Assembly: GCF_947500795.1 (NCBI RefSeq)
Contig: NZ_CANMTE010000003.1
Coordinates: 124,001 to 188,000 of the forward strand
Direction: 5' to 3'
DNA length: 64,000 nt
DNA from: an uncultured Gelidibacter sp.
GTDB lineage: Bacteria > Bacteroidota > Bacteroidia > Flavobacteriales > Flavobacteriaceae
Position numbers and translations under genes: made by a program
Notes under the pieces: generated by a model
What the model saw: only the letters and a program-made list of their open reading frames with translations
Told to the model about the DNA's origin: nothing
The model's database searches: none
Shown here: piece by piece, positions 46,412-47,465 of the stretch
Position numbering within the stretch: position 1 is the first letter of the stretch
Layout: each line of letters begins with the position of its first letter

Positions 46412-46951
46412 CTAATGGCAAACTTTGCAGTGCTCGCGCTCTTTGAGCTCGCCTACCAAATAGCCGTCGTCATTAATTTTAAAATCACAACACTCAACAA
46501 AGCCTTTAGCTATGAGCTTTCTGCCACGCTGTATTTGAGATTTTACGGTAGGTAATGGCAGATTTAAACGCTCTGAGATTTGAGCTTGTTTAAGTCCCTG
46601 TATGTCTGCCAAAACCAAGGGATCTCTATATTTTTTAGGCAGACTTTTGATGATGCCACGCAAACAATCTTCTTTGGTATGATCAGTAGCAAGATGTTCT
46701 GAAGGAAGGTCAACATCTGTTTGAACAGTATTAGGATTTTGATTTCTAAAATAATCCATCATCGTGTGCCTTGCCACAGCAAACACCCAGGATTTCAATT
46801 TAGTCTCATCCTGTAACGTATCCAATTTCATATGGATTTTAATAAAAGTTTCTTGAAGTAAATCGTCAGTAACCTCATCGTCTTTCACCTTACTTAAAAT
46901 AAAGTGCGAAACGTCATCCGCATATAAATCCCAAACCAGTTTCGTTTTCAT
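46412..46951 (-). CDS. sigZ: ECF sigma factor, SigZ type, with Cys-rich C-terminus
   Basis: 179 residues. Region 2 (DLLQETFIKIHMKLDTLQDETKLKSWVFAVARHTMMDYFR, about 29-68) and region 4 (LPKKYRDPLVLADIQGLKQAQISERLNLPLPTVKSQIQRGRKLIAKGF) are complete. A 28-residue tail carries ECCDF and then EHCKVCH, four Cys and His that could bind a metal. SigZ is the TIGR02959-type name. A terminator hairpin and a cysteine-rich peptide gene lie immediately upstream on the same strand. No anti-sigma factor gene is adjacent. Confidence 0.9.
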   Translation of the reverse strand: MKTKLVWDLYADDVSHFILSKVKDDEVTDDLLQETFIKIHMKLDTLQDETKLKSWVFAVARHTMMDYFRNQNPNTVQTDVDLPSEHLATDHTKEDCLRGIIKSLPKKYRDPLVLADIQGLKQAQISERLNLPLPTVKSQIQRGRKLIAKGFVECCDFKINDDGYLVGELKEREHCKVCH

Positions 46952-46967
46952 CTGTGTGCATTAAAAA

Positions 46968-47005
46968 AGAGTCTACTCTAGTATAAATTTACTAAAACAG
47001 ACTCT
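46968..47005 (-). terminator. Terminator between Cys-rich peptide gene and sigZ
   Basis: On the minus strand, stem AGAGTCT / AGACTCT with inner TAGTA / TACTA pairing, followed by TTTTTTAA. It lies 25 nt after the peptide stop and 16 nt before the sigZ start, so readthrough would decide sigZ expression from the peptide promoter. Confidence 0.82.
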
Positions 47006-47029
47006 CATTATTAACATTTTAAACTAAGC

Positions 47030-47131
47030 TTAACAGTTGCAATTGTTGCACGTACAGTTTTCACAAGTACAAGCTGCACAATTTCCTTTTTGACAACTGT
47101 CACAATTACAAGCACATTCTGTATTTTTCAT
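47030..47131 (-). CDS. Metallothionein-like 33-residue Cys-rich peptide
   Basis: ATG to TAA on the minus strand encodes 33 residues, 11 of them Cys, at positions 6, 8, 10, 13, 18, 21, 23, 26, 28, 31 and 33, as CxC and CxxC pairs separated by Asn, Thr, Ala and Lys. There is no signal peptide. The spacing is that of a small metal-thiolate protein. The third codon positions are normal for the region. It precedes sigZ on the same strand, behind a strong terminator. Metal binding is inferred, not shown; a low-complexity artefact is unlikely given the terminator and the clean start. Confidence 0.7.
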   Translation of the reverse strand: MKNTECACNCDSCQKGNCAACTCENCTCNNCNC

Positions 47132-47273
47132 GATCTTTATTTTTTAGGTTCATCTAATAGACGTGAAAAACTTAAAAAAGATGCGTTTGCTGGGTTTTAT
47201 TTTTAAATATTTAATTTATTCTAATGATGTTTGAACTTTGAAATTTGGATTTTTGGTTGATTTATGACTTCCC

Positions 47274-47439
47274 AAAAATTAAATTCGTTTTGTCAATTTG
47301 TTGAGTTTCTTAGGATCCCGCAAAAAGGCGGGATAAGCGACTCACACACATTTTGCGAAAAATTAAATTCGTTTCGACATTCTGCTTAAATTTCTTAGGA
47401 TCCCGCAAAAAGGCGGGATAAGCGACTCACACACATTTT
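47274..47439. repeat. Two tandem copies of an 84-nt unit with GC hairpin
   Basis: Units begin at 47274 and 47358 with AAAAATTAAATTCGTTT. The last 49 bases (47306-47354 and 47391-47439) are identical and contain the 7-bp hairpin ATCCCGC / GCGGGAT (47315-47334; 47400-47419). This GC-rich core stands out in an AT-rich gap. No long open frame is present. Confidence 0.88.
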
Positions 47440-47456
47440 CCGAAAAGGAAAATGTG
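47432..47456. repeat. Perfect 10-bp hairpin near icmF stop
   Basis: CACATTTTCC / GGAAAATGTG with a 5-nt loop, nine bases beyond the icmF stop codon. It overlaps the end of the second 84-nt unit and lacks a T-run, so it is not a classic terminator; it could stabilise the icmF 3' end. Confidence 0.7.
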
Positions 47457-47465
47457 GTTCGCTGC

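Follow-up and report, generated by a model that had tools for sequence, protein, structure and literature searches.

A Cys-rich peptide gene and a SigZ-like sigma factor

The window (the whole stretch of 64,000 nucleotides analyzed here, part of contig C3 of a 3.46-Mb genome in 19 contigs) carries on its minus strand an ECF-type promoter, a gene for a small Cys-rich peptide, a hairpin with a T tract and the gene of an ECF sigma factor, in that order (Table 1). An original prediction, made from the letters alone, had pointed to an ORF of 33 residues with 11 Cys, to a hairpin terminator ahead of the sigma gene and to a sigma tail containing ECCDF and EHCKVCH, and all three are there; the promoter is an element that it did not contain. 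No metal gene was recognized beside the pair in the genome of the window or at most of the other loci, where neighbors were mostly read by eye. At 47301-47461, 3′ of an icmF gene, we also found a pair of direct repeats of 76 nt, 88% identical to each other and both containing a GATCCCGCAAAAAGGCGGGAT hairpin, which looks like a duplicated terminator.

Table 1. Features of the peptide-sigma locus in the window
Feature	Position	Strand	Details
ECF-type promoter	47158-47185	minus	Leave-one-out matrix score 30.1
Promoter -35, CGCATC	47180-47185	minus	Followed by a 16-nt spacer
Promoter -10, CGTCTA	47158-47163	minus	26 nt 5′ of the peptide ATG
Metallothionein-like peptide gene, type A	47030-47131	minus	33 aa, 11 Cys; Cys conservation, codon comparison
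Hairpin terminator between peptide and sigma genes	46967-47006	minus	17 pairs, then TTTT
SigZ-like ECF sigma gene	46412-46951	minus	179 aa, C-terminal Cys tail; family models, alignment
Cys96 codon of sigma gene	46664-46666	minus	Border of sigma2-sigma4 linker and region 4
C-terminal Cys tail of sigma gene	46418-46492	minus	
Cys154-Cys155 of tail	46487-46492	minus	
Cys175 of tail	46427-46429	minus	
Cys178 of tail	46418-46420	minus	

The peptide of the window (MKNTECACNCDSCQKGNCAACTCENCTCNNCNC; 33 aa, 11 Cys, no aromatic residue) has the general look of a metallothionein, i.e., a small, Cys-dense protein with CxC and CxxC spacing and conserved Cys. Homology to a described metallothionein family was not found among Pfam, NCBIfam and PDB sequences, where it had no match at all at E ≤ 1, and a plasmid search with the peptide gave no match either. 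Two types are present at SigZ loci, type A with 33 to 34 aa and 11 Cys and type B with 37 to 38 aa and 14 Cys. In type A, all 11 Cys are invariant and their spacing is fixed up to the last residue (25 aligned sequences out of 27 peptides, leaving out G122 and the frameshifted G188), while the 14 Cys of type B are invariant in six sequences. The only variation at type-A Cys codons is TGT versus TGC (26 sequences), and dN was smaller than dS in all six type-A pairs tried, with dS saturated in at least two of them. Pooled over all type-A pairs, the codon differences amount to 2431 synonymous and 3169 nonsynonymous ones; the residues between the Cys drift. The original prediction had made the link to SigZ depend on conservation of the ORF, and the ORF is conserved; since dN is below dS and it adjoins SigZ in nearly all places (see below), a chance ORF can be discarded. 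The peptide would be expected to bind metal.

For the sigma factor, the best NCBIfam models were those of SigZ, NF007215 (PRK09637; 5.7e-50) and TIGR02959 (1.6e-45), matched over nearly the whole length, yet the equivalog cut-offs were not reached (169.8 versus 212 and 154.5-155 versus 168.65, respectively). It has the ECF architecture, with sigma-70 regions 2 and 4 only (PF04542, 3.8e-10; PF08281, 7.8e-15), and its profile A1 matches the structure of SigW (5wuq, 6.8e-21). This is the sole close copy of sigZ in its genome (next match, E 4e-14), and the closest relative among 80 named loci is that of Gelidibacter salicanalis, with 77% identity.

The C-terminal tail of the protein has conserved Cys, with a spacing of CC-x19-C-x2-C. 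Cys154, Cys155 and Cys175 are invariant in 34 aligned SigZ sequences and make up, as CC...C, three of the seven invariant columns of the alignment; Cys178 is found in 30 of the 34. The four sequences that lack this fourth Cys include the peptide-bearing G063, and for this reason we dropped the idea that tails with three and four Cys form an arsenic versus metal code. There is another Cys at the border of the linker, Cys96, which is Cys in at least 90% of the 34 sequences and lies next to the start of the region-4 match (residue 95). Counting fragments, this linker-border Cys is conserved in 34 of 36 rows, with a directly adjacent Cys (CC) in six of the 36. SigZ therefore has the C-terminal Cys-rich extension of CorE-like factors and does not have the CxC of their sigma2-sigma4 linker. 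An AlphaFold model of SigZ had a pTM of 0.43, with pLDDT values of 60 to 77 in the tail. Because the tail Cys are invariant, sensing by the tail itself seems plausible, by analogy with CorE-like factors.

It could also be that SigZ answers an unlinked anti-sigma factor or some other signal, in which case the tail Cys would hold structural zinc only and the peptide would be a general metallothionein. Structural zinc sites are common, which speaks for this explanation. No anti-sigma gene was recognized by reading among the recurrent neighbors of the pair, including 11 further clusters present at varied positions in at least four genomes, and CC...C, among the invariant columns, match the logic of CorE, CorE2 and OrbS. 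We consider an unlinked signal unlikely.

Distribution of the pair and its losses

SigZ was found (E ≤ 1e-30) in 35 of the 199 genomes of the family, at 36 places, and 33 of these have a Cys-rich ORF immediately 5′ of sigZ and in the same orientation. Among these 33 pair loci, G188 has a frameshifted peptide, and at G047 the sigma match stops early, close to the end of a contig. At the remaining three places (G125, G121b and G109), which lack an upstream peptide, the sigma factors are only 31 to 35% identical to that of the window; two of them, G125 and G121b, adjoin ArsM, and G109 adjoins a small gene that by reading is VOC-like. Among 107 further loci (L140-L246, many of them generic ECFs; eight more places without a locus were left out), 22 had a peptide of the type-A or type-B kind upstream and six had a peptide downstream. 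Other Cys-containing ORFs, at L195, L207, L227, L243 and L245, look like chance. The one at L195, in an Acidovorax MAG, is a 38-aa ORF with three CC pairs, 85 nt upstream of an ECF sigma gene, and could be due to chance or be one more variant.

A sigma tree of 94 rows follows the type of peptide. The partners of type A form one clade (35/35, support 99/98) and those of type B another (16/16, support 100/98), and rows labeled arsenic (18, labels given by reading, with only part of them scanned with family models), none (19) and peptide-downstream (six) are not single clades. The tree left out two short sequences (G188 and G047), three that are the same places as others (L145, L147 and L176, equivalent to G160, G125 and G031), a close copy (L164, of L163) and most of the generic ECFs among L195-L246. 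Named members with type A include Gelidibacter, Oceanihabitans, Winogradskyella, Tenacibaculum, Polaribacter and Lutibacter, and those with type B include Salegentibacter, Psychroflexus, Aequorivita and Pontibacter. The original prediction saw one functional unit in peptide and SigZ, to be checked by looking for Cys-rich ORFs near sigZ in flavobacterial genomes; the conserved neighborhood in the 199 genomes and the two clades support it.

The peptide is also found without SigZ, in eight of the 199 genomes. Five of these orphans (G136, G139, G052, G081 and G062) keep all 11 Cys and have no SigZ-type motif upstream, so they are under some other control, and the peptide does not always decay where SigZ has been lost. 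The orphan of G099 has diverged. The genomes G088 and G059 have the same neighboring genes as the pair of the window (by reading, a gene of Lrp type and a conserved one whose function is unknown), and no sigZ was found in either the stretch or the rest of the genome; the peptide of G088 has lost three Cys and is preceded at the expected place by a degenerate motif (score 5.4), and that of G059 has its last Cys changed. In G188, two stop codons in the sigma gene accompany the frameshift in the peptide, damage that may be a sequencing error. As to the surroundings of two type-A-like orphans, that of G136 (L280) has the genes of a CDF exporter and a metallo-hydrolase upstream, in the same orientation, and that of G052 (L281) is near a carbonic anhydrase gene.

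Of the 34 loci analyzed, 17 have an icmF-like gene no more than six genes upstream and the rest do not, and therefore many loci of type A occupy the same place on the chromosome. This would agree with an ordinary gene order that was simply inherited vertically, the two genes being functionally unrelated. However, the pair is kept in other contexts, without the icmF-like gene, a second clade pairs with a different peptide, the promoter motif is absent at orphan peptides, and in two genomes without sigZ the peptide is damaged. Mere inheritance thus appears extremely improbable.

Promoter motif, metal(loid) neighbors and the structured gap

Upstream of the peptide, the family shares the promoter consensus TGCATCTTTTT-N11-CGTCTA, or a close variant, with a core of TGCATC-N16-CGTCTA. 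Leave-one-out matrix scores were 18.2 to 34.8 in all 33 pair loci (counting G188, with its broken sigma) and at most 9.4 in 1069 background windows, values to be read with the provision that the matrix was built from sites chosen for their likeness to the consensus and that leave-one-out removes only part of this selection. At the eight orphan loci, in genomes with no SigZ (G062 offering only 127 nt upstream), scores went from -12.9 to 5.4 and the motif was found in none, so that it is present with SigZ and absent without it, as would be expected of a SigZ-driven promoter. That SigZ reads it is what this distribution suggests.

The exact pattern was found at 26 sites in the 199 genomes, 20 of them at pair loci, versus one site for a reversed-pattern control. 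In its own genome, the site of the window is the only one with one mismatch or less to the full consensus. Two sites with two mismatches were discarded as candidates, one being inside a 358-aa open frame and the other antisense to a 355-aa frame; there are 18 sites with three mismatches, a level at which counts equal the control (21 versus 19), and a looser pattern added a single site, antisense to a 355-aa open frame. Throughout the 33 SigZ genomes, off-locus sites showed no excess over the reversed control (25 versus 23), and therefore the regulon of SigZ seems to be its own operon only. Six exact sites are off-locus, in G083, G125, G017, G123, G141 and G163. No target was recognized for those in the last four, and that of G125 is behind its own sigma gene. 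The site in G083, a second one in this genome (L128, C14:19459-19486), is 23 nt before the gene of a CDF cation exporter (TIGR01297, 2.6e-78) and may be an exception to the single-operon regulon, or may be due to chance, since off-locus sites are at control level; a search of its genus returned only G083 itself.

At six loci that are more distant (L150, L153, L154, L156, L183 and L187) the peptide is located 3′ of the sigma gene, as exemplified by MKNLTECTCTECDCVVSPCGCDCCSS. There, TGCRTC-N16-CGTCT precedes the peptide in six of six cases and the sigma gene in five of six, within a scan of 34 loci in which the strict expression matched nothing at many, including the type-B loci L144, L146 and L184. 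We also listed the neighbors of 29 SigZ relatives without peptide, plus G109 and G121b. Several of them adjoin ArsM (NCBIfam NF008823, over the cut-off in the four tested), and the relatives next to an arsenite methyltransferase include L147, L151, L161, L175, L190 and L062. In the first five of these, the last two of which (L175 and L190) are Proteobacteria, a TGCRTC-N16-GTCT-like motif is found before ArsM, identified by family model in two of the five and by reading in L161 and L175. These would be apparent arsenic-responsive ECF regulons. Genes of ArsI/CadI family metalloenzymes are 3′ of the SigZ relatives L155 and L160 (over the cut-off in the two tested), and an ArsR/SmtB-type regulator is near one peptide-less relative (one tested). 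Next to others of the peptide-less relatives, no metal gene was recognized.

In the type-B genome G160, a single strand contains, in this order, an ArsR-like gene (by reading), the genes at L087 4146-7173 for DUF6428, for a protein resembling phosphatases (below the cut-off of Pfam LMWPc) and for ACR3 (TIGR00832, 2.4e-132), and immediately 3′ of these the genes of the peptide and SigZ. An ACR3-like gene (by reading) occupies the same place in G422 as ACR3 in G160. The metal response of the original prediction gains indirect support from partners in relatives, namely CDF, ACR3, ArsM and ArsI/CadI, and none from the neighbors in the window. These partners have to be set against a purely thiol-redox unit, in which the tail Cys of SigZ would be oxidized (diamide, HOCl) and the peptide would act as a thiol buffer. 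The Cys pairs of tail and peptide are also suited to disulfide chemistry, but the partners found with family models at related loci, where neighbors were mostly read by eye, are ArsM, ArsI/CadI, ArsR/SmtB type, ACR3 and CDF, and we find redox sensing a rather improbable function.

Between the peptide and sigma genes, the 81-nt stretch 46952-47032 folds with -20.4 kcal/mol (z -2.9 versus dinucleotide shuffles, only one of 200 being as good). The gap folds stably in 27 of 31 loci (z < -3 versus mononucleotide shuffles; G188 left out). Among 620 random windows taken from these loci, 25 folded equally well, and G122 accounted for 15 of them. In G122 itself, the first 110 nt of the gap fold no better than shuffles, and in G047 the gap is reduced to 3 nt, with no hairpin to fold. 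A structured gap is therefore general, not universal. The stable fold in the 27 gaps fits a hairpin that would hold SigZ low.

Eleven Cys codons in a short ORF immediately 5′ of a terminator and a regulatory gene are also what one would expect of a leader peptide, in which ribosomes stalled by cysteine starvation or shortage of tRNA-Cys would disrupt the terminator and increase the level of SigZ. The typical features of a Cys attenuator, an ORF always upstream and antiterminator pairing, were not found at these loci. The six loci with the peptide downstream of sigma and with its own copy of the motif argue against it, as do the eight genomes with the peptide and no sigZ found and the constant Cys spacing, down to the last residue, of the 25 aligned sequences. 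Besides, the 5′ arm of the terminator pairs better with its own ORF than with those of other genomes in only nine of 28 cases. We think that a leader peptide is very unlikely here.

Proposed operon and comparison with known systems

We regard it as probable that the locus is a self-contained, autoregulated, CorE-like metal(loid)-response operon, with a metallothionein-like peptide as its product. The computed basis is the conserved pair, the conservation of the peptide, the promoter motif linked to the pair, the stable hairpin and the invariant Cys, and our confidence is slightly lowered by the lack of a hairpin in G047 and by the orphan peptides that remain intact. SigZ would bind a thiophilic metal or metalloid, which might be As(III), Cd, Zn or Cu, through the invariant Cys of the tail (CC...C, usually with CxxC), with Cys96 possibly sharing in the binding, and would thereby become active. 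RNA polymerase with SigZ would then initiate transcription at the TGCATC-N16-CGTCTA promoter, 5′ of the peptide gene, and the first and most abundant product would be a short transcript for the 11-Cys peptide, the hairpin stopping most transcripts 3′ of it. Read-through would renew a little SigZ, a positive autoregulation in which the ratio of peptide to sigma would be fixed. The peptide would bind the metal, reducing its free amount, and, as it accumulates, strip it from the sigma factor, which would fall silent and reset the system.

A broader reading, to which we give somewhat less than an even chance, is that these loci belong to a large unrecognized class of ECF sigma factors that carry their own thiol metal sensors and whose regulon would be a single promoter, for a metallothionein-like peptide and for themselves. 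The peptide would be a de facto anti-sigma factor that strips the metal of the tail, peptides of three or more types and two gene orders would occur in the class, and the promoter motif would be held in common with sister SigZ factors running arsenic methylation.

With the operon as proposed, the SigZ-type sigma factors of Bacteroidota gain a testable job and a candidate promoter, and a previously unannotated family of metallothionein-like peptides, absent from the family libraries searched, is named. The layout is that of a compact metal switch, with sensor, transcription starter and sink in less than 800 bases. If the peptide does reset the sigma factor by taking its metal, the feedback loop would be a chemical one, with no anti-sigma protein involved. 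The layouts with ArsM, ArsI/CadI, ACR3 and CDF provide a natural family of metal and arsenic sensors for comparison.

ECF sigma factors that sense metals with C-terminal Cys clusters are already known, namely CorE, CorE2 and OrbS, for Cu(II), Cd/Zn and Fe(II), respectively (PMC8999054, PMC3107203 and PMC9023288), and in view of these precedents, sensing by the sigma factor itself is less unusual than originally predicted. CorE and CorE2 of Myxococcus xanthus (ECF44, now ECF238) are, like SigZ, ECF sigma factors with a Cys-rich C-terminal extension and have no linked anti-sigma factor (none was recognized by reading beside sigZ); CorE answers Cu(II), and CorE2 answers Cd(II) and Zn(II). The differences there are that CorE-like factors also need CxC in the sigma2-sigma4 linker, where SigZ has one conserved Cys at the border, that their tail spacing is C-x4-C-x2-C-x-C or CC-x3-C-x2-C-x-C, and that SigZ, unlike them, is paired with a metallothionein-like peptide. 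A 2011 survey around CorE gives sigma factors with this domain (CRD) in four phyla, Bacteroidetes not being among them. OrbS of Burkholderia cenocepacia has a C-terminal Cys cluster as an on-board metal sensor, as proposed for SigZ, but is switched off by Fe(II) and has the ornibactin genes as target. Among the open-access titles and abstract openings listed we found no description of SigZ with a metallothionein or arsenic gene, or of an ECF sigma factor, Cys tail and metallothionein-like peptide in combination; PMC4138018 contains both words, SigZ and arsenic. The parts themselves are of known kinds (ECF sigma factor, sensing by a Cys tail and metallothionein-like peptide). The bacterial metallothioneins SmtA and MymT are short, with Cys in CxC and CxxC, and bacterial metallothioneins are controlled by repressors of the ArsR/SmtB or CsoR type. 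The peptide of the window resembles SmtA and MymT in length and Cys spacing but, unlike them, has no family-model match and, in contrast to the repressors of known metallothioneins, appears to be controlled by a dedicated ECF sigma factor.
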